A DNA stretch of 42,145 bases, taken from positions 1 to 42,145 of the IMG/VR virus record IMGVR_UViG_3300018414_000012, one strand, 5' to 3'. The stretch comes from a virus. Both the position numbers and the translations under genes were made by a program. Within the stretch, counting starts at the first letter, position 1; the number at the start of each line of letters is the position of its first letter. The notes beneath the pieces were generated by a model. That model was not told the origin of the DNA. It did no database searches and saw only the letters and a program-made list of their open reading frames with translations. Below are positions 2,291-42,144 of the stretch, in pieces.

Positions 2291-2496
2291 AAGACAACTG
2301 CCCTTCTTGCGGCGCATCCTTCCAAGGCGGCATGATCCCTGAAGACCAACGCCATCTCTTCGGCGGGAAAGCGCATTTCTCCCGGATGATCGGCATCGTG
2401 ATAAACGACCGGGTGGTATGCTGGAGGTGCCCCGACTGCGGTCATATGTGGCCGCGCTGTGCTGACATCGAAACTCAACCCGATACGAATTCATGA
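2287..2496 (+). CDS. 69-aa zinc-ribbon protein
   Basis: An N-terminal CPSCG and a C-terminal CWRCPDCGHMWPRC motif give two CxxC pairs about 40 residues apart, the pattern of a zinc ribbon. Such short phage proteins often have no assigned role. Start and stop both overlap the neighbours by four bases. Confidence 0.7.
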   Translation: MKDNCPSCGASFQGGMIPEDQRHLFGGKAHFSRMIGIVINDRVVCWRCPDCGHMWPRCADIETQPDTNS

Positions 2497-3197
2497 AAAA
2501 AGAACGCCCCATCCTTTTCAGCGGCCCGATGGTCCGCGCCACACTGCGGGAGATCGATCCCAAGACCCATACACGGCGGGTGGTGAAACCTCAGCCACTT
2601 GTGCCAGCCGGAATCTTGCCTCAGGCGCACAACCTGGATGGCGGTAAGTTCGGATTCTTTTCAGAAGATGCTGATTATTGCTGCCCCTACGGTGCCCCCG
2701 GCGACCGGCTGTGGGTGCGGGAGACCTTCGGTTTTGTGGGTGGCGTCTTTGACGAGAATGAGAACCCGGCACCGTGGATTCCTGACCGCCCCGCAATTGA
2801 GATCAATGAATTGAAACTTGGGAGAGGCTACTACACCGGGCATGCGATTTACGCAGCAGACGGTTACTTTGAGTGGAACGCCGGGGACGACCCATCCATC
2901 GAGACACGAAGCGCGTGGCATCCGTCTATTCATATGCCTCGATCCATTTCCCGGATCCTGCTGGAGATCGTCTCCGTGCGCGTGGAGCGCCTCCAGGACA
3001 TCAGCGAGGCTGATGCCATCGCGGAGGGCGTGGAGAGGCACCATAAACGTCCTGAATTTTTCAAAGCCTACAACTGCAAGGAGGGGATCGCCACAACCGC
3101 CCGCGCTTCGTTTGAGACTCTATGGCATGAGCTCAACGGCCCCGAAAGCTGGGACGCCAACCCTTACGTGTGGGTGGTCGAGTTCAAGAAAATCTAA
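2493..3197 (+). CDS. Conserved phage protein of the 'TQTRRVVKPQP' type (possible PUA/ASCH-like fold)
   Basis: 234 aa. Recognisable blocks include RPILFSGPMVRATL near the N-terminus, HTRRVVKPQP, CPYGAPGDRLWVRETF, WHPSIHMPRSISRI, VERLQDISEADAIAEG and SWDANPYVWVVEF at the end. I know these as a widespread phage and prophage protein of unassigned function, with some resemblance to ASCH/PUA-like domains. Full length. The start overlaps the zinc-ribbon gene. The last gene before the CRISPR-repeat-like element. Confidence 0.75.
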   Translation: MKKERPILFSGPMVRATLREIDPKTHTRRVVKPQPLVPAGILPQAHNLDGGKFGFFSEDADYCCPYGAPGDRLWVRETFGFVGGVFDENENPAPWIPDRPAIEINELKLGRGYYTGHAIYAADGYFEWNAGDDPSIETRSAWHPSIHMPRSISRILLEIVSVRVERLQDISEADAIAEGVERHHKRPEFFKAYNCKEGIATTARASFETLWHELNGPESWDANPYVWVVEFKKI

Positions 3198-3219
3198 CTA
3201 TTTAACCAATGAAAACAGA

Positions 3220-3251
3220 GTCGCTCCCCACACGGGAGCGCGGGTTGAAAC
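3220..3251 (+). CRISPR. Solitary type I-C-like CRISPR repeat (candidate RNA anti-CRISPR)
   Basis: A single 32-nt unit begins GTCGCTCCC, has the perfect 7-bp hairpin CGCTCCC-CACAC-GGGAGCG and ends CGGGTTGAAAC. Length, stem position and the 11-nt 3' tail ending GTTGAAAC match type I-C repeats, whose Cas5-type nuclease leaves an 11-nt 5' handle. There is no second repeat, no cas gene and no array. It sits between two plus-strand genes in the sense direction. Solitary repeats in phages are known as RNA anti-CRISPRs (Racrs) that bind Cas proteins in place of crRNA; that role here is inference. Confidence 0.8.
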
Positions 3252-3290
3252 TTCATCTCGGTGATGTTCTTTTCTCCTGCCGGAGAGCCG

Positions 3291-3377
3291 ATGAAATGGC
3301 CCGTGCTGGGCTTGGTAATGACCCTCATTGCGCTCGGCGGGGAATGCTATTGGGAGTCCAGAAGGAACCGGCCATGA
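3291..3377 (+). CDS. 28-aa membrane peptide
   Basis: A short gene opening MKWPVLGLVMTLIALGGE, with one predicted membrane helix, then a basic tail. GGAGAG at 3282-3287 gives a good ribosome binding site, within a small hairpin (TCTCC-TGCC-GGAGA) that could limit access. The stop overlaps the next ATG (3374). Confidence 0.5.
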   Translation: MKWPVLGLVMTLIALGGECYWESRRNRP

Positions 3378-3514
3378 ACTGCCCGCGCTGCAACTGCTCT
3401 CGCCCGAATCCTAGCTGCCCGGTCTGCTGGGACGGCGGAGAGCAGGAAGAGCGCGAGATCGACAAGGCAGAGAGGGAAATGCAGGCCGAGAAAGACGAGG
3501 AAACAACACCATGA
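3374..3514 (+). CDS. 46-aa Cys-rich zinc-knuckle-like protein
   Basis: Starts MNCPRCNCSRPNPSCPVCW: five Cys in 17 residues, two as CxxC, followed by a charged Glu/Lys helix. AGAAGGA about eight bases upstream is a Shine-Dalgarno, and the start overlaps the 28-aa gene by ATGA. A longer frame beginning at 3209 is a translation of the CRISPR repeat and should not be used. The stop overlaps a further ATG at 3511 that opens only 12 codons. Confidence 0.6.
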   Translation: MNCPRCNCSRPNPSCPVCWDGGEQEEREIDKAEREMQAEKDEETTP

Positions 3515-3570
3515 ATATTACGAATCTGACCGAATGGAAATCCGGGTAGTGGGCTACTTTGAAATAAAAA

Positions 3571-3621
3571 ACGAGATTCTCGTAAAATAAATGTTGACGT
3601 TTTGCGAGAATCTCGTAAGTT
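3571..3621 (+). promoter_or_regulatory. Promoter with two operator palindromes
   Basis: Two related palindromes, ACGAGATTCTCGT (3571-3583) and GCGAGAATCTCGT (3604-3616), lie 33 bp centre to centre, about three helical turns. A TTGACG -35 box is at 3594-3599 and a weak TAAGTT -10 at 3616-3621, so the second operator fills the spacer and binding would block RNA polymerase. Expected to be bound by the downstream Xre protein as an autoregulated operon. Confidence 0.7.
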
Positions 3622-3666
3622 GTCGTCGTTGCCACTGAGCAACACCAACCAAAACCAACTAAGAAA

Positions 3667-3993
3667 ATGAGCACCTACACCTACACCGACTACGAATACG
3701 CGCAACAAGCCAAGCAACCAGCATGGTTCGGCACCTTCGCTATCAACCTCGCCGCCACTTCCGGGTCGTCTCCATTCAATCAATGGTATGGATTCCAATC
3801 CCGTAAAGATGCTGTTGCTGTTCTGTCCGATGATCGTTCCCAGCAGTTCATCGACAACTACGAGATCTTCGACGGCGAGATCTACAGCCGTGAGTTCACC
3901 CAATGGGATGAGGAGACCGAGGAAACTACCCTGCTCGAAGGCGCGGTCCCAGCCGACCTTAACGACATTGTCCGCATCCAAAGCCCGTTCTGA
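3667..3993 (+). CDS. Acidic 108-aa protein, candidate anti-CRISPR
   Basis: Not recognised. Very acidic (I count 18 Asp/Glu against 6 Lys/Arg), Tyr/Phe/Trp-rich, and without membrane segments. It is the first gene after an operator-bearing promoter and is followed at two bases by a 61-aa HTH protein. That order, small acidic gene then small HTH regulator, is the acr-aca arrangement. The nearby solitary CRISPR repeat strengthens the guess. It starts after an A/C-rich leader with no Shine-Dalgarno. Role inferred from context only. Confidence 0.6.
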   Translation: MSTYTYTDYEYAQQAKQPAWFGTFAINLAATSGSSPFNQWYGFQSRKDAVAVLSDDRSQQFIDNYEIFDGEIYSREFTQWDEETEETTLLEGAVPADLNDIVRIQSPF

Positions 3994-3994
3994 A

Positions 3995-4180
3995 ATGAGC
4001 TTCTCCGAACAACTCAAAACGGAGCGCAAACGCCTCGGCCTCACACAGGCCGAGGCTGATGCCCTCCTTAATCTCGGGAAGGGGCAAATCACAGCATGGG
4101 AAACCGAACGGAACACACCCCACGAAATCATGCAGGAAGGCGTCCTCGCCCGTCTATCAAAAGCAAAACCAAAGAAATGA
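3995..4180 (+). CDS. Xre-family HTH protein, 61 aa (Aca-like)
   Basis: A stand-alone helix-turn-helix domain: SEQLKTERKRLGLTQAEADA, then LNLGKGQITAWETERNTP, the standard Xre/Cro pattern (LGLTQ, then I-T-A-W-E). No C-terminal sensor domain, so probably a simple dimeric repressor. It follows the acidic gene directly (TGAAATG). The palindromes at 3571-3616 are the likely operators. It could alternatively be an ordinary immunity repressor, though no integrase is present. Confidence 0.75.
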   Translation: MSFSEQLKTERKRLGLTQAEADALLNLGKGQITAWETERNTPHEIMQEGVLARLSKAKPKK

Positions 4181-8735: not shown

Positions 8736-9364
8736 AGGTAATAGGAACCGAAGGATTGGCGGGGTTGCATGTTCAAATTGGTAGATACCTTGTTTCCCAC
8801 AAGCTGGGCCGTGCGGGTAATTTCCGGTTTTGAAAGCTCGTAAAACAGTTTGTCTTCCGCCTCTTGGTCCGCGATGATGGCCTTCTCCTGCTGGCCTTCT
8901 GATCTCAGGTAGTCGGAATAGGTGCCATGCGCTAGATATTGGAACCATTCCCTGGGGATGGTGTCAACGGATGGCTGATTGCCGTAGGTTACATCGAAGG
9001 CAATCCTATAGGTCACGAAAGCGGAATCGGGCAGAAGACCGCCGGACAGCAATGTAGCCCCGCCGGAGGTGACGAAATAATCGTATTCCTGGGTAGCATT
9101 TGAGCCATACGGCTCGCTGACGAAAACGCGCAGAAATTCCCCGATCTCATCCAACCCGGATTGGGAAAAGGGAATGACACTTGAATTGACCTCCCGTTCT
9201 TCCGCTATTTTGATCCATCTCGGCCAGTGCTCGCACGCGTCATACGCACGTTGCGCCCGTGAGTTCATCAGGGAATTGATGCGTGGTTGTTCGATTAGCG
9301 AGAACTGAACCCCGCAAAGACCCTCAATCAACGTGTAAAGATCGCTGTATGGGCGTGTCTGCAT
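8732..9364 (-). CDS. Putative head-tail adaptor (tail tubular A-like)
   Basis: 210 aa. Helical N-terminus (YSDLYTLIEGLCGVQF, then SRAQRAYDACEHWPRW), a beta-rich middle and a long C-terminal helix with Glu/Gln (EGQQEKAIIADQEAEDKL). Size, layout and position after the capsid genes resemble podovirus adaptors of the T7 gp11 or P22 gp4 type, which join portal to nozzle. Not a confident family match. Confidence 0.45.
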   Translation of the reverse strand: MQTRPYSDLYTLIEGLCGVQFSLIEQPRINSLMNSRAQRAYDACEHWPRWIKIAEEREVNSSVIPFSQSGLDEIGEFLRVFVSEPYGSNATQEYDYFVTSGGATLLSGGLLPDSAFVTYRIAFDVTYGNQPSVDTIPREWFQYLAHGTYSDYLRSEGQQEKAIIADQEAEDKLFYELSKPEITRTAQLVGNKVSTNLNMQPRQSFGSYYL

Positions 9365-12531: not shown

Positions 12532-14603
12532 TGCTGCATGTTTTGGGTGTCGATTCCGCCAACGTTGGCTTGCTGGGTGCCGATCCTTCCGGTGGCCGCG
12601 TTTTGCGCCTGCTGCATCTGGAACTGATATTGTTCCGCGTATTTCTGGAGACGCTCGGCAAACGCCTGGTCCCCTTGGAGACGCTGGGCAACGTCTTCTT
12701 GCGACGCGTAAGCCTGAATGATCTGGAGGGCGATTTGTGCGCCGTTCGGACGGGCCGGGACTTCAATGGATGCGGAAATCTTCGCCAAGTCATCGGTCAC
12801 ATCCTTGGTCATCTCGGTCATGCTCGCATCCTGAGGCTGCATGATGTAATCGCCCATCACCGGGTCAATTGAGCGAACCAGCATCTCGATGTATTTCCGG
12901 CGGGAGATCACGTTTTCCGTGTCGAATTGCAGGACGGTTCCCATTGCGGTAAATTTCGCCTGGACCGTATCCGGATCGTTGTTCGTGGCGTCGAACGAAA
13001 CCACGATGGAGTATTTGTCATCCGGGCTTCCCTTCTGCATCACCTGACCCTGGGGGTCGCCTGACACCATGAAGAAAACTTCATCCGGCCCCATGCGCTG
13101 ATAGAGCTTCCACGCGCAGTCAAGGACCTTGCCAACATGAGTCAGGAACGTATCCATGACTTCTTGTTGGCGCACCGAGGACAGCGGGTTTTCCATGTTC
13201 AGTCCAACCGCCATGTCGGCTTGCTGGCGCATGGTGATTTCAATTTCCTTGCTGCCGGAATCGTAGGCCGGGGTCGGCGCGTAGGCGATTTCCCCAAGAC
13301 GCCGATAAGGAATCCTTCTGCCTGGTCCAAAGTCTGTTGGAGGCCTACCGGCTGGGTGCATCAGCGGCGGGAGCGTGGCCATGCTGGCACGGTCAATCCG
13401 GCTGTCCACCTCAGTCTTGATTTGCATCTGGGGACCGCGCAACGAACGCGTCATCGGCGTTGTTTCGTAAAGCCGCTTTTCCGAATGGTTGAGACGGGTG
13501 ACTGTCACCGGGTATTCGTCCATACCATCAAGCAATTCATGCTTGGCGAAAAGGTCGGTTTTCTGGGGATTGAAAACAGTGCAGTAAATCCCCTCGCTGC
13601 CGTCCACCTCGTCTATCAGACGCTGGTAAGCGTAGAGAACAAGGACGAGCGTATTGTTGTCGTCGTTGACGAGATTGCGAACCGCGAGGTTTCCTTTTTC
13701 TCCTTCCAGCCTGTCGGATTCCAAACCGCGAAGATTTCGGATGGCGTAATCGACCCATTCAGCGTCCCATCCGTCGCTCTCGACCATCTTGAGAAGCATC
13801 TGCGCCGTCATGAACTTGCGGATAAACAGGTAAGGAACATCCTGCGGGTCCATCGTCCAGTTAGGAAAGATGATGTCTCCGTCTGGAGCGAGAGTTTCAA
13901 CGTATGGCTCGTTGATGGACTCGACGGCAACCGGGATTTCAGCCTCCCCGGTTTGCCGAAGCTGCCGGAGAGCCTTTTTTGCCCTCCCCGTCGTGATGCC
14001 CATGCTTTCCACGAAAGCGGCGGATATCTCGTCGTCGTTCTCTCCACCAAGGATCATCTGCGCTAATTCCTCGCCGCCTTCCTGATTTTGGACAAGATCG
14101 TCCAAGGAAATGGTTTGCAAGCGAGATCGCTTCTCCCTGCGCCACCCGGTATAGGTGATCATGATTCCTTTTTCCAAGAGGTGATTGGCCCCCAGCTTCA
14201 TCTGGTCCTTGAAATTTCGGATGTAGGTGGATTGCATCCATTTGAGGAACGTCGAAACCGTGGAGGCCATCGGCGCGGTTGCGGCGGATGTTGGCAACGC
14301 CCGGATGTGTGACCGGACCAAAGCCTGCATCAGCAGGGACACGAACGTGTTGATCCTCTCCCCCACAACGTTCACCTCGTTGTCTGACGCCCCCTGCCAA
14401 GGAAATGCGTTCGGCGCGTTTTTTCGCATATCCCATGTCTTTCCAGGCCACAAGTTGTGCCGGTCATCGTAAGATACGGCGCAAGACTGATAGAAGTAGT
14501 TATTGTCCACGAGAGCCGTCCTGTAACCATCCGTGAGGACGTTAAGATCCGGTTCCGTGGAAGTGTAAATCAGGCTTTCGTCTTGGAATTCAGGCTCGCT
14601 CAT
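12528..14603 (-). CDS. Portal protein
   Basis: 691 aa, the size of podovirus portals. Contains RHNLWPGKTWDMRKN, 'PWQGASDNEV', a region describing wing and stem, and a Gln-rich C-terminus with QYQFQMQQAQNA that fits a helical barrel. It forms the dodecameric ring through which DNA enters and leaves. The order TerS, TerL, 126 aa, portal, scaffold, capsid supports the call. Start overlaps the 126-aa gene. Confidence 0.85.
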   Translation of the reverse strand: MSEPEFQDESLIYTSTEPDLNVLTDGYRTALVDNNYFYQSCAVSYDDRHNLWPGKTWDMRKNAPNAFPWQGASDNEVNVVGERINTFVSLLMQALVRSHIRALPTSAATAPMASTVSTFLKWMQSTYIRNFKDQMKLGANHLLEKGIMITYTGWRREKRSRLQTISLDDLVQNQEGGEELAQMILGGENDDEISAAFVESMGITTGRAKKALRQLRQTGEAEIPVAVESINEPYVETLAPDGDIIFPNWTMDPQDVPYLFIRKFMTAQMLLKMVESDGWDAEWVDYAIRNLRGLESDRLEGEKGNLAVRNLVNDDNNTLVLVLYAYQRLIDEVDGSEGIYCTVFNPQKTDLFAKHELLDGMDEYPVTVTRLNHSEKRLYETTPMTRSLRGPQMQIKTEVDSRIDRASMATLPPLMHPAGRPPTDFGPGRRIPYRRLGEIAYAPTPAYDSGSKEIEITMRQQADMAVGLNMENPLSSVRQQEVMDTFLTHVGKVLDCAWKLYQRMGPDEVFFMVSGDPQGQVMQKGSPDDKYSIVVSFDATNNDPDTVQAKFTAMGTVLQFDTENVISRRKYIEMLVRSIDPVMGDYIMQPQDASMTEMTKDVTDDLAKISASIEVPARPNGAQIALQIIQAYASQEDVAQRLQGDQAFAERLQKYAEQYQFQMQQAQNAATGRIGTQQANVGGIDTQNMQQ

Positions 14604-21139: not shown

Positions 21140-21266
21140 TTTCGGAAATTTGGCACTGGTCCACTTTGAAAACAGTCGGTATTCTGGGCGGCAAGACAGT
21201 CTCTACCCTTCCGGGGAAAGATAGTCAATTCCACAAAAATCCATGAACGCGCAGTTTCATCCTCAA

Positions 21267-21458
21267 TCAAACGAATCGATAAACCGGGCGAGATGGACAT
21301 TCCTTGCAATATGGGAAGAACTCAAAGTGGCCGTCGGACTTCTTCCACAATACGCCATTATTCTCTTCCAGCCCGACCGGCTGGAGACTTTCAAGCTTCA
21401 CGCGAAGATCCGAATTCTCAGCTTTAAGACGCGTATTCTCCGTGAGAGCAATGCGCAA
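21267..21458 (-). CDS. 63-aa coiled-coil/Cys protein (uncertain start)
   Basis: Coiled-coil N-terminus (ENTRLKAENSDLRVKLESLQ) and a C-terminal YCKECPSRP motif. No ATG is present; TTG at 21458 or an upstream in-frame non-ATG codon must serve, and the frame stays open to the TAG at 21507. A frameshift from the upstream 30-aa frame is also possible. Confidence 0.4.
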   Translation of the reverse strand: MRIALTENTRLKAENSDLRVKLESLQPVGLEENNGVLWKKSDGHFEFFPYCKECPSRPVYRFV

Positions 21459-21506
21459 GCTCTCCGTCAGATGGAGATTGTCCTTGAGGACCAGAGAGTT
21501 CTCATT

Positions 21507-21599
21507 CTAGAAAATCTTAATCTGCGCAAGCAGATATTCTCTCGTCTCTTTTCCCAGCCCGGCGTTGCGGATGGCGGCGATGACGTCTGACAGGTTCAA
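21507..21599 (-). CDS. 30-aa peptide, TTG start
   Basis: Reads NLSDVIAAIRNAGLGKETRE and ends KIF. It overlaps no gene but begins five bases after the transposase stop at a TTG, with no Shine-Dalgarno. Possibly the N-terminal piece of the coiled-coil gene downstream, separated by a stop. Confidence 0.3.
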   Translation of the reverse strand: MNLSDVIAAIRNAGLGKETREYLLAQIKIF

Positions 21600-21603
21600 T
21601 GGA

Positions 21604-22596
21604 TCAAGACTTGTGTCCCTCACCCTTGTAGAGGACGCCGGGCTTGCGGAGGTGTGCGGGCGGGTTCGGTCCCCCGCTCTCCGGGTCGATATACCACGGG
21701 ACAAGCGGTGTTTGTGGCGTGTGGGTCCGTGGCATCTCGCGACGTTTCTTGTAGCGGATCGGACGCTTTGGCGCATACAATTCCTTGCGGAACTCATCGA
21801 ACAGGCCAATGGCTTCCTCAAAGGTCATGGGTTTGTCCATGATTCCCGCAGCCACAGCCGGAGCGGTCTTGATCGCGGAGTGCTTCTTGATGAAGTTATA
21901 GACGAAGAAGTAAATCGCGATCTGGGCGGAATGGTTCTCCATTTTCTTGGAAAAAGCATTGGTAAGGCGCGTGAAACGACGCATGCCCATGCGCATCGAT
22001 AGGTTGGCCCGCTCCACATGGGAGGTGCAAATCTTGCTGTGCTCTGGATTCCCGAGAACCGCCGTCCGGTCCACACTGACGACGATTTCATATCCCCCTT
22101 TGGATTTCTCGTAATTCTTGGTCACCTTGCCATAGTCGGCCCGGTCGTCAAAAGCCCGGACAATCGCCTGCTGGTAGGAGCGGTGTCCATCGGTGGCTAT
22201 CTGCGGACGGTTTAGCAGTCGCTTCGCCAGATCCTCAGCCAGATCGTTCGCGGCCTGCTGGCTACGCTCTCCCACGATCCATGACGGCATCAACTTGGTG
22301 TCCCGGCACATGCTGGTCCACGTCCACACGTCCCCTTGCTGTGGATTCTTCGCTGTCTCCCGGTTCTTCTCCTTGCAGCCGCAAAACGACCAGATTTCAT
22401 CCATTTGGATGTTCGTGCATGGCAGGTTGCGCAAGTGCTTGTCCTGGTAGTGTTCGGAAAACTCCCCGAACTCGGCCACGAACTTCAACACGGTTGTCTT
22501 GCTGGCTCCGGTAAGACGGCTGGTTGCGCGGATGCTGTTACCCTCGGTCAGGCATTGCAGAACCAAGGAACGACGGGAAACGGGAAGGACGTTCAT
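21604..22596 (-). CDS. IS1-family transposase
   Basis: 330 aa. N-terminal HTH (CLTEGNSIRATSRLTGASKT), then the IS1 DDE core: Asp in NIQMDEIWSF, Asp in QIATDGHRSY and Glu in SHVERANLSMRMGMRRFTRL. It would cut and join element ends. The core is intact. The last roughly 70 residues are a Pro/Arg-rich tail longer than I expect for the family. No convincing terminal inverted repeats or target duplication were found, so it may be a captured gene or an element with unusual ends. Confidence 0.85.
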   Translation of the reverse strand: MNVLPVSRRSLVLQCLTEGNSIRATSRLTGASKTTVLKFVAEFGEFSEHYQDKHLRNLPCTNIQMDEIWSFCGCKEKNRETAKNPQQGDVWTWTSMCRDTKLMPSWIVGERSQQAANDLAEDLAKRLLNRPQIATDGHRSYQQAIVRAFDDRADYGKVTKNYEKSKGGYEIVVSVDRTAVLGNPEHSKICTSHVERANLSMRMGMRRFTRLTNAFSKKMENHSAQIAIYFFVYNFIKKHSAIKTAPAVAAGIMDKPMTFEEAIGLFDEFRKELYAPKRPIRYKKRREMPRTHTPQTPLVPWYIDPESGGPNPPAHLRKPGVLYKGEGHKS

Positions 22597-22686
22597 GCGG
22601 GGGAAAGCTAAGTAAAATGCTTATTCGGTCAAGCATAATGAGGGAGATTTCTGGCCATTATTCATGAATACTGCCAGCGTGATCCC
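22597..22686. promoter_or_regulatory. Divergent region with inverted repeat and minus-strand promoter
   Basis: ATGCTT-ATTCGGTC-AAGCAT (22617-22636) is an inverted repeat between the transposase start and the plus-strand HTH-like gene. On the minus strand TTGACC lies inside it and fits a -35 box for the transposase; no strong -10 is seen. Confidence 0.35.
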
Positions 22687-22917
22687 ATGTCATTTGCAAG
22701 AGACCTTGATTCCAACGATAACTGGCTGGTTCGTAACGCAGCACGCGAGGGGCTTACCTCATGGGAATTCGCGGAAAAGATGTCTATCCGAGAATCGCAG
22801 GTGTGGCGTCGTTTATACGAGCGTGGACAGGAGGCGCATCTTGAGATGTTTCTGGAAAACAATCGGAAGTGGGAAGAGCGAGAGGGCCGAGAAAGGCCCC
22901 CCCAGTATGGAGCCTGA
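22687..22917 (+). CDS. 76-aa HTH-like protein, divergent from transposase
   Basis: NAAREGLTSWEFAEKMSIRE then SQVWRRLYERG reads as a helix-turn-helix, followed by a charged Glu/Arg helix. No Shine-Dalgarno. Could regulate the transposase or be an accessory early gene. A minus-strand frame (22784-23035) overlaps its C-terminal half. Confidence 0.5.
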   Translation: MSFARDLDSNDNWLVRNAAREGLTSWEFAEKMSIRESQVWRRLYERGQEAHLEMFLENNRKWEEREGRERPPQYGA

Positions 22918-23035
22918 AAGGAAGCATCACATTCCTACCGGGACTAGCAACCACGGTTTCCCCTTCATGCTCCAGTATCTCCTTGAGAGATACATAGCCC
23001 ATGTAATCCTTCACGAAGTAGAAGCCGCATTCCAT
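22784..23035 (-). CDS. Possible 83-aa protein antisense to HTH-like gene
   Basis: The first 35 residues (MECGFYFVKDYMGYVSLKEI) look protein-like and lie outside the opposing gene; the rest may be the mirror of that gene. In line with the small minus-strand genes upstream of it. Real status unclear. Confidence 0.3.
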   Translation of the reverse strand: MECGFYFVKDYMGYVSLKEILEHEGETVVASPGRNVMLPFRLHTGGAFLGPLALPTSDCFPETSQDAPPVHARINDATPAILG

Positions 23036-23089
23036 GCCAATCTTTTAAACGCACTAATGTTGCAAAAGCAACCCCAAAGAGGCTTGGTT

Positions 23090-23248
23090 CTATGGCTTCT
23101 TGTCAGCCCACCGCTTCTTGGCGGCTTCACGGGCAATCTCGGATCGCCTTTCCGGCGTGAGGTTGGCAGCACGGGCCTTTCCACCTTTGAGCCCTCCCAT
23201 CCGGCCAAGCGCAACCGCCGCCGGGTTTTTATCGGGCTTCCCGCTCAT
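23090..23248 (-). CDS. 52-aa basic GG-K-rich small protein
   Basis: Contains ALGRMGGLKGGKARAANLTP and ERRSEIAREAAKKRW, the pattern of a widespread small basic protein often annotated histone-like or without function. AAGGAG seven bases before the ATG is one of the clearest ribosome sites in the window. Overlaps the end of the acidic 46-aa gene. Possibly nucleic-acid binding. Confidence 0.7.
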   Translation of the reverse strand: MSGKPDKNPAAVALGRMGGLKGGKARAANLTPERRSEIAREAAKKRWADKKP

Positions 23249-23369
23249 CGCTTTCTCCTTCTGAGATTTTCAGGAACTTCTTGAAGGTCTGATGCGCGGC
23301 TTCGATCCCCTCTTCTTCTGGGGAAATTTCCTCTTCTTCATCCGGTCCTCTTTCTTCGGGCAGAATCAT
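23229..23369 (-). CDS. 46-aa acidic small protein
   Basis: Starts MILPEERGPDEEEEISPEEE, then a short helix (HQTFKKFLKIS). Overlaps the next, very basic gene by 20 bases and carries that gene's ribosome site in its own coding sequence. The acidic/basic pairing hints at an interacting pair, which is inference. Confidence 0.5.
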   Translation of the reverse strand: MILPEERGPDEEEEISPEEEGIEAAHQTFKKFLKISEGESDEREAR

Positions 23370-23416
23370 GCTTGAGCGGTAATGCTTTTTGCGCTATCTA
23401 GCAAGAAAAATCATGA

Positions 23417-23950
23417 CTAGAATCGTCCCGTGCCGGCATCAAGGATCTGTGCCTGCCCTTTCTCGAAATCATCTTTCCACATCACATCCCACTGGCCAAT
23501 GCTGAGATATGCGTCCTTTGTCATTTCCGGGTCATTGAAAGTTCCTTCATTCAGAATCCCTTCTGACGGCTTCCCGCCCCCCGGATAATCCATGAAAAGT
23601 TCTCCCCCGAAATTCTTTCCGTAAATCAAAAATCCGTCCTCGTCTTTCAGGACGACCATCATATTTTTGAGGGGGCGATTTTGTTTTCCAGACATCATGA
23701 AATGGTAGCGGGCCTTCCCGTCGATCCACTTTGTTGTAAGTGAAAACTTTACCCCGACATCCGGGCGGTCAATTTCCGGCCATTCCTTGGCCCCCAATGC
23801 CTTTTTGGTTTCTAGCTCAACGCGAGTTTCCTCTTGTCGCTCTCTGGCCCGTTGGTATTTGCTGATTTGATCCACCGCAAGGGCAATCAAAGTCCCGGAA
23901 AGAACTAGGCTGATGGTTATCTTGGCTGTGCCGGTGAGGAACTTTTTCAT
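23417..23950 (-). CDS. 177-aa membrane-anchored protein
   Basis: An N-terminal membrane helix or uncleaved signal (ITISLVLSGTLIALAV), then a coiled stretch, then a soluble beta-rich domain (VGVKFSLTTKWIDGKARYHF). Not recognised; host-like in style, so possibly a moron affecting the envelope. A 7-bp hairpin ends one base before the ATG and could control translation. Confidence 0.6.
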   Translation of the reverse strand: MKKFLTGTAKITISLVLSGTLIALAVDQISKYQRARERQEETRVELETKKALGAKEWPEIDRPDVGVKFSLTTKWIDGKARYHFMMSGKQNRPLKNMMVVLKDEDGFLIYGKNFGGELFMDYPGGGKPSEGILNEGTFNDPEMTKDAYLSIGQWDVMWKDDFEKGQAQILDAGTGRF

Positions 23951-23951
23951 A

Positions 23952-24104
23952 GGAGCGGGTGTTGATCCGCTCCAGGTGGCCGGGGAGTTGATAAGTCGTG
24001 GACCGACCGCCCGGCTTTCGGCTTGCGCCTATTGCATCACCGAGCCTCCCCGACCGTTTTACGGGTAGGGTAAGCCGGTGCCCCCCTGATGAGGAGACAC
24101 CGGC
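23952..24104 (-). ncRNA. Structured leader region upstream of membrane protein gene
   Basis: On the minus strand three helices can form: GCCGGTG/CACCGGC (24074-24104), a 10-bp stem GGTCGGGGAG/CTCCCCGGCC with one G-U pair (24046-24055 with 23978-23987) enclosing a GCAA tetraloop hairpin (24020-24029), and GGAGCGG/CCGCTCC (23952-23973) ending one base before the ATG. The G-U pair favours the minus RNA. It may be a regulatory 5' leader; no known riboswitch recognised. The rest of 24105-24419 shows no supported gene. Confidence 0.45.
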
Positions 24105-24419
24105 AAATTTGATCCACGGGTTATCAAGCCCGGCCCACGGTTAAGCGGACAGGCGCGGGATAACTCATGAATCCCCTGGTTTCAACCTCGGAGTTGCTCG
24201 GAATGGGTTTTTCTTTGTAACCGGGGCGAAACGAGCATGCTAACAGGAAACAAGGGTCCGCATAGGCAATTCGTCGCTTGTTCCGAAATGAATGGCATTT
24301 TGCAACATATGGCCGATTTTGGGATTTTCCCTTGTATGGTCCGAAAAATATGATACCACATCTGGTGTCGGGAGTTCTGATCCAACGACAAAGTTCTTTC
24401 CAAGGAGTCGTATCCGAGG

Positions 24420-24467
24420 AGGCCAGTGCGGGTAAGTCAGAACTCCTCGCGCTGGCCTTTCTTCTTT
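24420..24467 (+). terminator. Terminator-like hairpin with a competing stem
   Basis: AGGCCAGTGCG (24420-24430) pairs with CGCGCTGGCCT (24448-24458), 11 bp with one G-U, followed by TTCTTCTTT. An alternative stem GAGGAG/CTCCTC overlaps it and would exclude it, the form of an attenuator. Plus strand, upstream of the small genes at 24530 onward. Confidence 0.5.
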
Positions 24468-24529
24468 GCGGGGAAGGGTTCGCCAAATCGCCCGGTAATG
24501 CGGGCCTCGGAGGCAAAGGGGGAAACCTC

Positions 24530-24673
24530 ATGCTGGAAACAATCTTCACCCGGGGGCAATTCTTACGACTTCTTAGTCCCCAAAGGTCATATCAGGAAAC
24601 TGGATACCTCACCGAACCTATACGGAAGCCAAAATCGAAGATTGGAAGGACGATGGTTTACTACCGGATTTAG
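24530..24673 (+). CDS. 47-aa winged-helix/excisionase-like fragment
   Basis: FLRLLSPQRSYQETGYLTEP then IRKPKSKIGRTMVYYR resembles the end of a MerR/excisionase-type winged helix, which normally continues with a helix after YYR. Here a stop follows at once, while another frame stays open to 24726 with protein-like sequence (EAKIEDWKDDGLLPDLVSSL). A frameshifted gene is possible. AGGGGGAA precedes the ATG. Confidence 0.35.
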   Translation: MLETIFTRGQFLRLLSPQRSYQETGYLTEPIRKPKSKIGRTMVYYRI

Positions 24674-24819
24674 TTTCTTCGCTCAGTGACTCAGTAAAAG
24701 GGACGGTTTTTCTAACTGATCCCTAAGAAGTCGCTCTTGTTTCTGTTTCCTATCCGACCGACCGGAAGCCAAGGAGAAGAGGGCGGCAATACCAACAAGG
24801 ATCAAAACCCGGAACCTGC

Positions 24820-25044
24820 ATGAGCATCGCGAAACGAGAGATGATGACGATTGTCCTGACGCCTGAATTGCTGGAAACAGGGATGAAGGCAGGGAGAGGA
24901 CTCAAAAGGATTCAGGCCAAAATACTTGGTGTTGGCTGGCCCTTGGTTTCTGGATGGAAAGAAAAAGCAACAGGGAAGGTATTGTCCTGGTCCGAGTGGG
25001 AAAACTTTCTGGAAGAGGGCCGGAAAAGGAAAAAGTCCCCCTAA
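24820..25044 (+). CDS. 74-aa basic hypothetical protein
   Basis: Basic protein (IAKREMMTIVLTPELLETGM; GRGLKRIQAKILGVGWPL). The minus strand has no long frame here, so the plus-strand reading is favoured. Met 8/9 could be the true start. Accessory gene of unknown role, opposite in direction to the structural operon. Confidence 0.5.
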   Translation: MSIAKREMMTIVLTPELLETGMKAGRGLKRIQAKILGVGWPLVSGWKEKATGKVLSWSEWENFLEEGRKRKKSP

Positions 25045-25071
25045 AAAACCAAAATTGCCCGGATTGCCCGC

Positions 25072-25443
25072 ATGAGAGGAAAAATCATCCCGTTCCCGAT
25101 ATCCAATACCCGGCCAGAAAGTGACATTTCCGTGGCCAAGGGTGACGGTCCGCCCGATTTCCTCGGGCTGCTGATCAGGGCTTCCTCGCTTTCTTCGCCG
25201 CCGGCAATACTAACGGAAAATTTCATGAGAAAGAGACTGAGTCCAGCGGATGAGGTAATCAGGAGTGCTCGCCGGAAGGGCGGACCCTTGGATGCCGAGG
25301 GGTTTGAATTCGTCTGCACCAAGTGTGGTGAGCGCGTCTTTTTCAGCATCCGTGAGGTCGTCAAGAGCCCCGCGAGGACTTGCCCCAAGTGCGGGAGTGG
25401 TTCCCTTGACCGCGTCGGTCAGGATGGCGATGCAAGTCCCTAG
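25072..25443 (+). CDS. 123-aa zinc-ribbon protein
   Basis: The C-terminal half holds FVCTKCGERVFF and ARTCPKCGSGSL, two CxxC pairs about 20 residues apart, a zinc ribbon. The N-terminus is unrecognised (MRGKIIPFPISNTRPESD). Overlaps a minus-strand frame (25210-25470). The Cys pattern supports the plus strand. Confidence 0.5.
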   Translation: MRGKIIPFPISNTRPESDISVAKGDGPPDFLGLLIRASSLSSPPAILTENFMRKRLSPADEVIRSARRKGGPLDAEGFEFVCTKCGERVFFSIREVVKSPARTCPKCGSGSLDRVGQDGDASP

Positions 25444-25470
25444 ATTTTTGGCGGCAGTTTCAGCGTTCAT
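25210..25470 (-). CDS. Possible 86-aa protein antisense to zinc-ribbon gene
   Basis: Reads MNAETAAKNLGTCIAILTDA and later LTDAEKDALTTLGADEFKPL, plausible protein sequence. Its start context AAATGAACGCTGAA recurs exactly at 25885. One of this pair of opposed frames is probably a shadow. Confidence 0.35.
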   Translation of the reverse strand: MNAETAAKNLGTCIAILTDAVKGTTPALGASPRGALDDLTDAEKDALTTLGADEFKPLGIQGSALPASTPDYLIRWTQSLSHEIFR

Positions 25471-25503
25471 TTGATTGTTCCGAAAATAACCTGCAAAGTC
25501 CCC

Positions 25504-25755
25504 ATGAAATACATCCTGCTCACGGTTCCAAACCCGAACCCCTCAGACAGCTTTATCAATGATGCGCACGCAATCCTGACTATCGATTTAGAAAAGCTCG
25601 GACTGCCCCACGAAGCTGCCGTAAGGCTCGGCCCATGTGGATGGCTGATACCGCGAGATGCGGCCATGCCCTTCGTCCTGCGGGTGGCAGATGCCGCGAA
25701 AAACAGAAACCAGGCAATCCTTCCAGTTGTTCAATACCTTCGGGATGACGACTAG
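25504..25755 (+). CDS. 83-aa hypothetical protein
   Basis: Reads MKYILLTVPNPNPSDSFI and then ILTIDLEKLGLPHEAAVRLG, with regular strand/helix alternation. Not recognised. Opposes a minus-strand frame over its 3' two-thirds. Confidence 0.5.
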   Translation: MKYILLTVPNPNPSDSFINDAHAILTIDLEKLGLPHEAAVRLGPCGWLIPRDAAMPFVLRVADAAKNRNQAILPVVQYLRDDD

Positions 25756-25885
25756 CCCCTTTTGATTCAGCGTCCTGTTCCCCGAACAATTTCATGTATC
25801 TCATAAGACGTGTGATGGGAGGCTCCGAACCCGGCGGATCGGCAAGAAGACGAGCGAGAATATTTAATTTTGATTCAGCGTTCAT
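25580..25885 (-). CDS. Possible 101-aa protein, C-terminal part antisense
   Basis: The first 43 residues (MNAESKLNILARLLADPPGS) lie outside the opposing gene and follow the 25887-26099 gene by one base; the remainder mirrors the plus-strand gene. Could be a shorter real gene extended by accident. Confidence 0.35.
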   Translation of the reverse strand: MNAESKLNILARLLADPPGSEPPITRLMRYMKLFGEQDAESKGASRHPEGIEQLEGLPGFCFSRHLPPAGRRAWPHLAVSAIHMGRALRQLRGAVRAFLNR

Positions 25886-25904
25886 TTCAAACTGGCCCAT
25901 TACC
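25885..25904. repeat. 20-bp direct repeat, copy 1
   Basis: TTTCAAACTGGCCCATTACC, identical to 26371-26390 but for one base. The pair brackets a two-gene cassette. Confidence 0.85.
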
Positions 25905-26099
25905 GGGTGGTGTATTGATCGACTCCAAAGGCGGTCCGTAGTCCCACCGGATGTTCCCGATGATTTCCTTGACCATTTTCCACCGCTTCCGGTTGGCCGG
26001 ATCGTTGCATCCATCCGGCGAGGCCGACAAGATCCGGGGAAGTTCCGATTCCAGCAATGCCAGGTCGTCTTCCTTGATTTGGTAGAATTTGGTTTTCAT
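25887..26099 (-). CDS. 70-aa hypothetical protein in repeat-flanked cassette
   Basis: Charged helical N-terminus (MKTKFYQIKEDDLALLESEL), then Asn/Lys/Trp-rich middle. Not recognised. Its end lies in one copy of the 20-bp direct repeat. Follows the membrane protein gene by four bases. Confidence 0.55.
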   Translation of the reverse strand: MKTKFYQIKEDDLALLESELPRILSASPDGCNDPANRKRWKMVKEIIGNIRWDYGPPLESINTPPGNGPV

Positions 26100-26103
26100 C
26101 CGA

Positions 26104-26313
26104 TCATCCCCGATAAAGGTCAACGACGAAAAAAGCTACGAGGAATACCGAGAATATGCCGAAAGAAATCACGAGAAGTTCAAACGCCGTGGCCCGATTA
26201 GGAGGGTGCTCGATCAGTCTCTTTTCGGGATCGCGTTCGTCCAAGTAGCATTGCTCGCACTGGCGAATTACTCCGTGTAGGTCCTCCAGCTTCTTCTTAG
26301 TAGATGAATTCAT
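26104..26313 (-). CDS. 69-aa C-tail membrane protein in repeat-flanked cassette
   Basis: Soluble N-terminus with CEQCYLDERDPEKR, then a strong membrane helix (LLVISFGIFSVFLVAFFVV) and DLYRG. Possibly an accessory envelope protein. Upstream 26314-26398 holds a repeat copy and an A/T-rich leader but no clear promoter. Confidence 0.55.
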   Translation of the reverse strand: MNSSTKKKLEDLHGVIRQCEQCYLDERDPEKRLIEHPPNRATAFELLVISFGIFSVFLVAFFVVDLYRG

Positions 26314-26370
26314 GGAACTTAAATTATTTTCTTGACGTTAACACTAGTAAATCCAATAAGTTATATGGGG

Positions 26371-26390
26371 TTTCGAACTGGCCCATTACC
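26371..26390. repeat. 20-bp direct repeat, copy 2
   Basis: TTTCGAACTGGCCCATTACC, eight bases after the stop end of the 467-aa virion gene. See copy at 25885-25904. Confidence 0.85.
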
Positions 26391-26398
26391 AAAGTTCG

Positions 26399-27802
26399 TT
26401 AACGCGGAAGAAGCCCTCTTAGTTTGCTGGATGCTTCTGCCGCCCGGTCCACAGGATTTGGACCGGAAGGCGAGACAATAGGCGCGTTCGCATCATTTGC
26501 AATGATACTTTTCGCCCTGTTCATGAACCAAGCCCAAGTTTCTGGTGGATCAGTAATTGTTGGACGACGTGCCATGAGTTGCTTCATTTCGTCCTCGCTG
26601 ACTGGCTTGAGATTCTTTGCCGCGTTAAGAAGATCCTGTTCCAGCAAATCAAGCTGAAGCTGTTTCTGGTTCGCTCGCGTTTCCGCCGAGTTGCCCCCAG
26701 GAACAAATGGAATTCCGCCCATAAATGATCCTACGCCCTCACCGAATCCAACAGCATCCTTCAACGCATCTTTGGGATTTCCGTCCGGAGTAAGATACTT
26801 GTCGATGGTATCCACCACTCTTTGATTTACCGATTTGGCTTCCACTTTGGCCGCCGCCGTGACTTTGGCCGCATCCTTGGCAGCTTGGATAGCCAATTGC
26901 TTTTGCTGAATATCGAGTGCCTTTGCCGGGTCTGGAGGAGTGACTCCGAAACCGTTGATCGGCGGCAGAACCATTCCAAGTTCCTCGTCCGAGGCATCCG
27001 CCGGAGTGAACACCGGCAAATCCGGGTTGGTAGGGTCCGACGCGCCGGGAGGAAGTAAGATTTCCGGGGCTTGCAGATCCGATACGGATCCGGACGCGGG
27101 ATCGAAAGCCATTTTTTTGGTAGAACCTCCCCCAATCGGGATGTCCACGATTTGAAGGTCTTTTTTCTTCTCGTCCGGAATGAGCTTGGAAAGCGAAGTC
27201 GCCAAAGCGTATTGCTCGGTTCCCGTGAGACCGTCCAGATTGATTCCGTTGGCCATTGAGGCTGGCAACGCGCTTTTGACATACTGCGCCAGCACCGGAC
27301 CCGCCGCGTTCTGTGTCGTCTCGTCCAGATCCATCGCTTTCTCGATGGCGGTTTGTTTCCGCTCCTGCTGCTGGATATCCTGGGTGGTGGCAAGCTGCCG
27401 CAGCGATGATTCACGCTCACGCAAGTCCTGGTCCCGCAGACGCATGGATTGGTCAGCCTGATAACGCTTCTCTCCCACGCCCATCGCGATCATGTCGGCA
27501 ATACCTGACGCAACCGCAGCCCGCTCACTCAAAGGCGCGTCCTCGTTTTTCAACTCGTTGGCAATCGCCGTGAGCCGTCCAGCCTGATCGGGGAAAAGCT
27601 GGATCGCCGCGTCAATCTGCGCCTGAGATGCCTTGAGAGTGTTCTTCGCCTCCTTTTGCTCCTTCGCGTAATCGCGGTTCACCGCGTCGATTTTATTTCC
27701 AAGACCGATGATGCCTTGCGCCTCGGTATTCGCGGCCTGCGCAAAACCTGAGAAATCCTGCAAAAACAGGCGTGGGTCAATGGAGTCTCCGAGTCTGGCC
27801 AT
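26399..27802 (-). CDS. Putative internal virion/ejection protein, 467 aa
   Basis: Long, helical, Gln/Ala/Asp-rich, with heptad-like regions (YAKEQKEAKNTLKASQAQID; RDQDLRERESSLRQLATTQD) and a glycine patch (FGEGVGSFMGGIPFVPGG). Overlaps the upstream 300-aa gene by one base. Layout follows podovirus inner-core proteins, ejected with DNA into the host. Family not certain. Confidence 0.55.
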   Translation of the reverse strand: MARLGDSIDPRLFLQDFSGFAQAANTEAQGIIGLGNKIDAVNRDYAKEQKEAKNTLKASQAQIDAAIQLFPDQAGRLTAIANELKNEDAPLSERAAVASGIADMIAMGVGEKRYQADQSMRLRDQDLRERESSLRQLATTQDIQQQERKQTAIEKAMDLDETTQNAAGPVLAQYVKSALPASMANGINLDGLTGTEQYALATSLSKLIPDEKKKDLQIVDIPIGGGSTKKMAFDPASGSVSDLQAPEILLPPGASDPTNPDLPVFTPADASDEELGMVLPPINGFGVTPPDPAKALDIQQKQLAIQAAKDAAKVTAAAKVEAKSVNQRVVDTIDKYLTPDGNPKDALKDAVGFGEGVGSFMGGIPFVPGGNSAETRANQKQLQLDLLEQDLLNAAKNLKPVSEDEMKQLMARRPTITDPPETWAWFMNRAKSIIANDANAPIVSPSGPNPVDRAAEASSKLRGLLPR

Positions 27803-41061: not shown

Positions 41062-42144
41062 TCAGGCAATGGCGCGGATATTGAAATCCTTTCCGCCGAA
41101 ACGTTCCTTGAGAGCATCACCGATGGTTCGGCAATTTGGGCTGACCGCCTCTACATGCCAAACCTTCGTGGTCTGATTCATCATCTTGAGATAGGGTTGA
41201 TAGTTGAGATTGGGGAAGAGGCTTTGCATGTCCCACAATTCATATTCCGAAGCGATCCACCATGGCTCATCGTAGTTGCGGAAGGTGTCCACCTGAGTGC
41301 CGAGGGCCAGCATCCGCTCGATGCCGAACTTTCGGATGAACTCGGTGCGGATATCGGCATTCGTTTGCTGGTGGAACCAGTCCATGGATAGGTCCTCGCT
41401 GGGCGTCATGGCGAGATATTCCGGCACGCGCACACCATTAAGGGCATGGAAACCCCATCCGACGAACTCCACGGCCATGCCGCCGTCACAATGCAACCCG
41501 TGTTCGTTCTTCCGGATGGCAATCGGCTTCTTCGAAACCAAGGCGATTTGTTCCAGCGGATAGATCATCCCGATTTCCGAGGTTTCCTTCCATGAATTCC
41601 ACTTGGTAAGCATCTCGGGATCGAGATTGATAATCGATTCTCTAACATAAAAATCGAAGTAAGAAAAAATACCGGCGTCGAAAGACCCAGAGATATATGG
41701 ATATACAAAATACCCGACCTGATCCCGGACCTGAGCCCCGACCTGAGCCCCGACCTGATCCCGGACCTGATACCCGACCTGATCCCCGACCTGATCCCAG
41801 ACCTGAGCCCGGACCTGATCCCCGACCTGAGCCCAGACCTGAGCCCAGACCTGATCCCCGACCTGATCCCGGACCTGAGCCTCGACCTGAGCCCCGACCT
41901 GAGCCCGGACCTGATCCCCGACCTGATCCCAGACCTGATCCCGGACCTGAGCCCCGACCTGAGCCCAGACCTGGTCCCAGACCTGATCCTCGACCTGGTC
42001 CCGGACCTGATCCCGGACCTGATCCCAGACCTGATCCCGGACCTGAGCCCCGACCTGAGCCCAGACCTGGTCCCAGACCTGATCCTCGACCTGGTCCCGG
42101 ACCTGATCCCCGACCTGATCCCGGACCTGAGCCCGGACCTGAGC
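41062..42144 (-). CDS. DUF6745-like tandem-repeat protein, C-terminal part (continues from position 1)
   Basis: About 144 codons of Q-V-(R/G/W/E)-(D/A) repeat, then '[20 protein letters not shown]', the block [20 protein letters not shown] and a C-terminal [20 protein letters not shown]. The order matches DUF6745. Joined to the N-terminal part the protein would have at least about 460 residues. The frame across the junction is off by one base as assembled, so the array is probably longer than shown. An ATG at 41613 inside is not the true start. Confidence 0.8.

Follow-up and report, generated by a model that had tools for sequence, protein, structure and literature searches.

What does a lone CRISPR repeat do for a phage that carries it between two of its own genes? 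The window analysed here, the whole of a virus record (G000) of 42,145 bases, encodes a terminase, a major head protein, a RecT/Bet-like annealing protein, a YqaJ-type recombinase domain protein and a lysozyme. It also contains one 32-nt unit that a sequence-only reading had taken for a type I-C-like repeat and proposed as an RNA anti-CRISPR (Racr) against the type I-C system of the host. That solitary phage repeats can act as Racrs, as this reading stated, has a precedent in RacrIC1 (PMC10651486). IMG/VR has previously been scanned for solitary repeat units, and about 90% of the viruses that carry them have CRISPR-bearing hosts, with a subtype match of 83% (PMC10651486).

The repeat unit and its relatives in type I-C arrays

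The unit, GTCGCTCCCCACACGGGAGCGCGGGTTGAAAC, occurs once, on the plus strand, and its letters, read directly, bear out the coordinates, 7-bp stem, CACAC loop and 11-base tail described earlier (Table 1). The hairpin is retained when the unit is folded alone as RNA (−13.6 kcal/mol) and also in the folded 93-nt gap around it, the overall stability of which is unremarkable (z −1.35). In type I-C systems Cas5 replaces Cas6, and the repeat is cut to give an 11-nt 5′ handle and a 21-nt 3′ hairpin (PMC5965380), in agreement with the handle length that the earlier reading had attributed to Cas5. By analogy, a Cas5c cut is predicted between 3240 and 3241, and the hairpin together with 3220-3221 would form the 21-nt part that Cas5 leaves as a 3′ hairpin (PMC5965380). 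A TTTAACC motif 5′ of the repeat could pair with GGTTGAA in the handle (window 3201-3250) and lengthen the hairpin; the G at repeat position 25, itself unusual, makes this pairing possible, which may be a coincidence.

The unit has no partner within the window, as had been claimed: the runner-up 32-mer matches it at 19 of 32 positions, and the best 32-mer match in 100 window-sized Markov controls reached 23. A match of at least 29/32 is expected about 1e-9 times per such window for each repeat queried, so chance cannot explain the unit. That figure weighs heavily against the idea that the resemblance is accidental, the letters being either coding sequence of ORF 3209-3514 or a terminator hairpin. 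The frame is indeed open, and there is a weak terminator-like match on the minus strand; however, a scan of relatives and viral context (1.04 Mb in all) for generic hairpins followed by TTGAAA[CT] gave one match, unlike the unit, and we regard an accidental resemblance as barely credible. The terminator itself was rejected, as it lies on the minus strand, has a weak T-run and belongs to a class of matches whose number is at chance. An Rfam scan of the window gave no match at gathering level, CRISPR-DR9 scoring the unit at 16.5 bits against a gathering threshold of 45.

Arrays were sought with a wider pattern, in which two loop bases and base 22 were left free and base 25 could be A or G. This pattern returned 108 stretches, mostly arrays, across many phyla, whose majority repeats have 24-30 of 32 bases (mostly 28-29) in common with the window unit. 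Of the 94 stretches that contain two or more repeats, 92 have T at base 22 and 92 have A at base 25. The window unit has C and G at these positions, each found in two array loci, and C at base 22 is seen in 5 of the 18 Verrucomicrobiota array loci. Judged by this comparison, the unit is a type I-C repeat, identical at up to 30/32 bases to repeats of genuine arrays, and the earlier class assignment holds.

The nearest array lies in a Verrucomicrobiota genome (G384) and has eight repeats beside cas genes, in contrast to the single repeat of the window. Its minor variant, ATCGCTCCCCACACGGGAGCGCGGATTGAAAC, matches the window unit at 30/32 bases and is identical over positions 2-24 (23/23); the differences fall at repeat positions 1 and 25, and the stem, loop and cut site are shared. 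The array is adjoined by cas3, cas5c, cas8c/csd1 and cas7/csd2, the last three of which exceed the NCBIfam type I-C cut-offs. Among 289 genomes drawn from the order of G384, G384 alone has matches at three or fewer mismatches. The array search that the sequence-only reading had proposed thus succeeded in finding related arrays, including this one beside type I-C cas genes, but not the exact 32-mer, which is absent from the other IMG/VR viral contigs and the GTDB species genomes scanned.

Every array repeat found differs from the window unit at two or more bases. This divergence, together with the absence of the repeat from related phage loci, would suit an inert relic, that is, a repeat acquired by accident that is decaying without function. 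The stem is perfect, however, the unit is intact over its full length, and each of its deviating bases is present in some natural array, so that a relic seems improbable to us.

We also emulated SRUFinder, using our own repeat set in place of the SRUFinder database. Its definition of a solitary repeat unit asks for an identity of 90% or more across 90% or more of a known repeat, a score of at least 41.1 bits, the absence of any other repeat, whole or partial, within 100 bp, flanks less than 70% similar and a location outside confident Prodigal ORFs. In this emulation the G384 minor variant passes the threshold (96.8% over 31/32, 54.0 bits); the G384 major repeat gives 93.5% and 46.1 bits, the L104 minor repeat 93.8% and 48.1 bits, and repeats with three mismatches 40.1 bits, slightly below 41.1. 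The flanks score 0.50 and 0.53, within the solitude rule. The unit mimics the repeat of a subtype including its structure, as is asked of a Racr. Viral mini-CRISPR arrays likewise place host-type repeats in a viral genome, but are defined by at least two repeats bracketing a spacer, against one here.

For the host, terminase relatives are found in 10/289 genomes from the phylum to which a Verrucomicrobia MAG belongs (Verrucomicrobiota), compared with 1/246 in the phylum of a Planctomycetales genome and 1/199 in that of Paracidobacterium. We infer from sequence similarity that Verrucomicrobiota is the host phylum, as a lean and not a proof, because these relatives are distant (identity mostly 32-42%). 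The repeat family is held by 17/388 Verrucomicrobiota genomes, and as terminase relatives are enriched in this phylum, matching arrays do occur in a group that could plausibly include the host. None of the 1,830 spacers collected from related arrays (1,371 + 459) matches the phage beyond chance; the best spacer-window matches span 15-17 nt, similar to those of a control in which the spacers of the first set (1,371) were reversed. Blastn hits of the flank to Pseudomonas phages are confined to the 3′ end of the upstream gene and its stop region, and do not reach the repeat.

Elsewhere in the window, an IS1-family transposase gene (21604-22596) and few other clear genes occupy 21140-26400 and interrupt the structural blocks, an unusual cargo at this phage size. 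The transposase was tried as a guide to the host and set aside as not decisive, with a best Verrucomicrobiota match of 47% and plasmid matches of ~40%. The right end (41602-42141) is filled by tandem copies of a 12-nt repeat (CCCGACCTGATC-like) that recurs at the left end (1-68), which suggests that the genome is circular or ends in repeats, or else that the assembly ends here.

Flanking genes and reading frames

The repeat lies in the sense direction between plus-strand genes, and the 93-bp gap given for it earlier (3198-3290) is right provided that the next gene starts at 3291; our own simple gene caller places this start at 3296. The PHROG 874 gene upstream could give read-through transcription across the repeat. 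Promoter-like matches near the repeat are at chance level in a sequence scan.

Table 1. Position of the repeat, its parts and the neighbouring features in the window
Feature	Position	Strand	Remark
Co-directional gene, 234 aa, PHROG 874	2493-3197	+	Stop 22 nt 5′ of the repeat
Alternative ORF, 101 aa, ATG at 3209	3209-3514	+	Spans the repeat in frame
Solitary type I-C CRISPR repeat, racr candidate	3220-3251	+	30/32 to array repeats; solitary
Hairpin	3222-3240	+	Arms 3222-3228/3234-3240, perfect 7-bp stem CGCTCCC/GGGAGCG; loop CACAC 3229-3233
Putative 11-nt 5′ handle, CGGGTTGAAAC	3241-3251	+	By analogy with type I-C processing (PMC5965380)
28-aa ORF ahead of the 46-aa ORF	3291-3377	+	
Cysteine-rich 46-aa ORF, 3′ part of ORF 3209-3514	3374-3514	+	May be a gene
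Sigma-70-like promoter match	3559-3588	+	From sequence; number of matches not above chance
Two mirrored 13-nt operator-like boxes	3571-3583, 3604-3616	+	From sequence
Orphan protein, 108 aa	3667-3993	+	No homologues found
XRE-type helix-turn-helix protein, 61 aa	3995-4180	+	Pfam HTH_3 and HTH_31 above cut-off; start codon 3995-3997

Our gene caller leaves the repeat intergenic, and ORF 3209-3514 nonetheless spans it. No Shine-Dalgarno sequence is visible for this frame, comparison with Pfam, PHROGs and NCBIfam gave it no relatives, and as a whole it is probably not a gene. Since it covers the repeat in frame, yet lacks both a Shine-Dalgarno sequence and relatives, the intergenic status of the repeat is likely but not certain. 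The earlier statement that no cas gene is present agrees with our search, in which the window proteins tested, a subset of the window ORFs, gave zero matches to Cas families.

Downstream of the predicted handle, ordinary sequence of spacer length follows, and the unit could in principle be a one-repeat guide, in which the Cas5c-processed repeat and ~34 nt beyond it (TTCATCTCGGTGATG...) would act as a crRNA-like guide against another phage or against a gene of the host. Viral mini-arrays with a targeting function do exist. A second or partial repeat is missing within 100 nt, however, and searches of annotated phages and plasmids with the downstream stretch gave nothing meaningful, which leaves a guide function very improbable.

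Further 3′, positions 3559-3616 may mark the start of a second transcription unit, going by sequence. The 108-aa and helix-turn-helix genes stand ~400 nt 3′ of the repeat, behind the mirrored boxes and within 1 kb, and the stretch 3559-4180 has the look of an acr-aca operon in its layout only. Racrs are often, though not always, situated close to acr genes. By position only, the orphan is a possible Acr and the helix-turn-helix protein would be Aca-like. Neither neighbour matched a known Acr or Aca, and an Acr identity for the orphan was not adopted, the protein having no homologues and an AlphaFold model with a mean pLDDT of 54. Because of the missing Acr and Aca matches and the poor model, we give the resemblance little weight.

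Solitary repeats elsewhere and their possible origin

Across viral contigs, a broader pattern returned 26 stretches; with arrays, mini-arrays and contig-end copies set aside, 16 solitary viral sites remain, or 17 with the window. Flanking genes are co-directional with the repeat in 14 of the 17 and opposed in 3 (one of the 14 was judged from one side). After merging three copies on one contig and dropping the window the ratio is 11:3, with a one-sided binomial probability of ~0.03. Several of these repeats lie 12-44 nt 5′ of a start codon. The sense orientation fits the need of a transcribed RNA decoy and would not result from a random scar; it counts as supporting evidence only, because the gene calls come from our own simple caller.

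At one viral site, L133 (IMGVR_UViG_3300036766_001779, 12871-13347), the repeat occupies the exact point where a PHROG 6247 gene ceases to match its homologues: ~72 residues match, followed by the translated repeat GVAPRAGAWIET and then by unrelated sequence, whereas the homologues have ~300 residues. From its sequence the site looks like a deletion junction occupied by the repeat. A repeat lying exactly at the break of a truncated gene would fit a recombination scar, in which a phage crossed with a host array through phage-matching spacers and one repeat was left at the junction. The benefit of such a scar, if any, would be escape, with the repeat replacing the PAM beside a protospacer, rather than a decoy RNA; two-spacer recombination at sites of the L133 type would account for both the scar and the PAM removal. 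A solitary copy outside any array in an Armatimonadetes chromosome is in keeping with this origin, as is ATGAAAACAGA immediately 5′ of the window repeat, possibly the beginning of a gene that was cut. The 14:3 sense bias of viral solitary repeats is not expected from a scar, however, and the window shows no broken gene. Moreover, no array with the window flanks as spacers is present among those collected, and the related phage loci include no empty-site relative. We consider a scar unlikely, though not far-fetched, for the window; it would explain where the repeat came from, and is a possible but unproven account that is compatible with Racr function.

The same recombination might be the general source of solitary phage repeats. 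The stretch between two protospacers would be lost, a spacer-repeat-spacer segment gained and a protospacer left bordered by the repeat, giving immediate escape together with raw material for Racrs, with the window at a later and L133 at an early stage. This scheme is quite doubtful at present.

Other copies illustrate how such units are distributed. On one phage contig (G393, IMGVR_UViG_3300031673_000079; loci L137 and L139), three identical solitary type I-C repeats lie scattered at 9272, 11329 and 11926 in the same orientation, and ~21 upstream bases are common to two of the three, which suggests that the unit has been copied inside the phage genome. The Armatimonadetes copy (L060:1105-1136, from a MAG) stands on the same strand 1 nt after a fliI-like stop in a flagellar operon; it is the sole match to the window unit at three or fewer mismatches in that genome and lies outside any array. 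Three unrelated solitary repeats (L061:2761-2792, L060:1105-1136 and L139:358-389) are immediately followed on the 3′ side by AAACAA-type sequence (TTGAAACAAACAA...).

Among 82 related phage loci, found via the capsid protein, none contains the repeat, and most are without the early region. The repeat is thus not conserved (absent from 82/82), though the early region is mostly missing there; since these relatives do not share the early region, they allow no before-and-after comparison of the site.

A candidate decoy RNA for type I-C

The unit is a genuine type I-C repeat that stands alone and runs in the direction of its neighbours, and arrays of the cognate type with cas genes occur in the plausible host phylum. 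For the earlier proposal of a Racr against the type I-C system of the host, the repeat itself, its sense orientation, the SRUFinder emulation and the RacrIC1-like layout all speak in favour; the function itself we infer. Racr function is the best reading of the unit that we can offer, and a fairly probable one. We further think it probable that the repeat was taken from an array, or evolved to match one, most likely that of a Verrucomicrobiota host, and acts as a Racr. The chance-level promoter matches, the lack of the exact 32-mer in any array scanned, the lack of a spacer match beyond chance among those collected, the absence of the repeat from the 82 related phage loci and the frame from 3209 count against the decoy reading.

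RacrIC1, from a Bifidobacterium pseudocatenulatum prophage (PMC10651486), is likewise a solitary type I-C repeat carried by a virus. It lies 11 nt 3′ of acrIC5 on the same strand (PMC10651486), compared with 22 nt 3′ of the PHROG 874 gene for the window unit, and it follows a known acr, while the gene upstream of the window unit is not one. RacrIC1 and acrIC5 share one bicistronic RNA, and RacrIC1 alone inhibits type I-C (PMC10651486). Its transcript and inhibition are demonstrated (PMC10651486), whereas the window unit is a candidate by sequence, likened to RacrIC1 by layout and not by sequence. As RacrIC1 already inhibits type I-C, a solitary type I-C Racr is not new in kind.

In our proposal, the repeat would be transcribed in sense by read-through from the upstream gene. 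Cas5c of the host would then recognise the CGCTCCC/GGGAGCG hairpin and cut after 3240, and one Cas5c may remain on the 21-nt hairpin. Downstream phage RNA would begin with the 11-nt 5′ handle and could nucleate a Cas5c-Cas7-Cas8c complex without a useful guide, so that effector subunits would be drained from phage-targeting crRNAs. The predicted cut and the handle-led assembly follow from the type I-C 21+11 layout of the unit (PMC5965380). In known type I-C systems one Cas5 stays on the hairpin, while the 5′ handle is presumably bound by a second (PMC5965380). RacrIF1 of type I-F (PMC10651486) is, like the window candidate, a repeat mimic, and both would compete for effector subunits. RacrIF1, however, is processed by Cas6f to a product without a 5′ handle and collects Cas6f and Cas7f (PMC10651486), while for a type I-C unit Cas5 would make the cut and the 5′ handle would stay on the downstream RNA.

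If this mechanism is true, the unit would be a further type I-C Racr candidate, in a phage probably of Verrucomicrobiota, within a class that is already established. The cas3-cas5c-cas8c-cas7 genes of G384 offer a nearly cognate set for testing the candidate. It would also allow two questions to be put: by what means type I-C Racrs work in systems that lack Cas6, and whether recombination with host arrays is their source.
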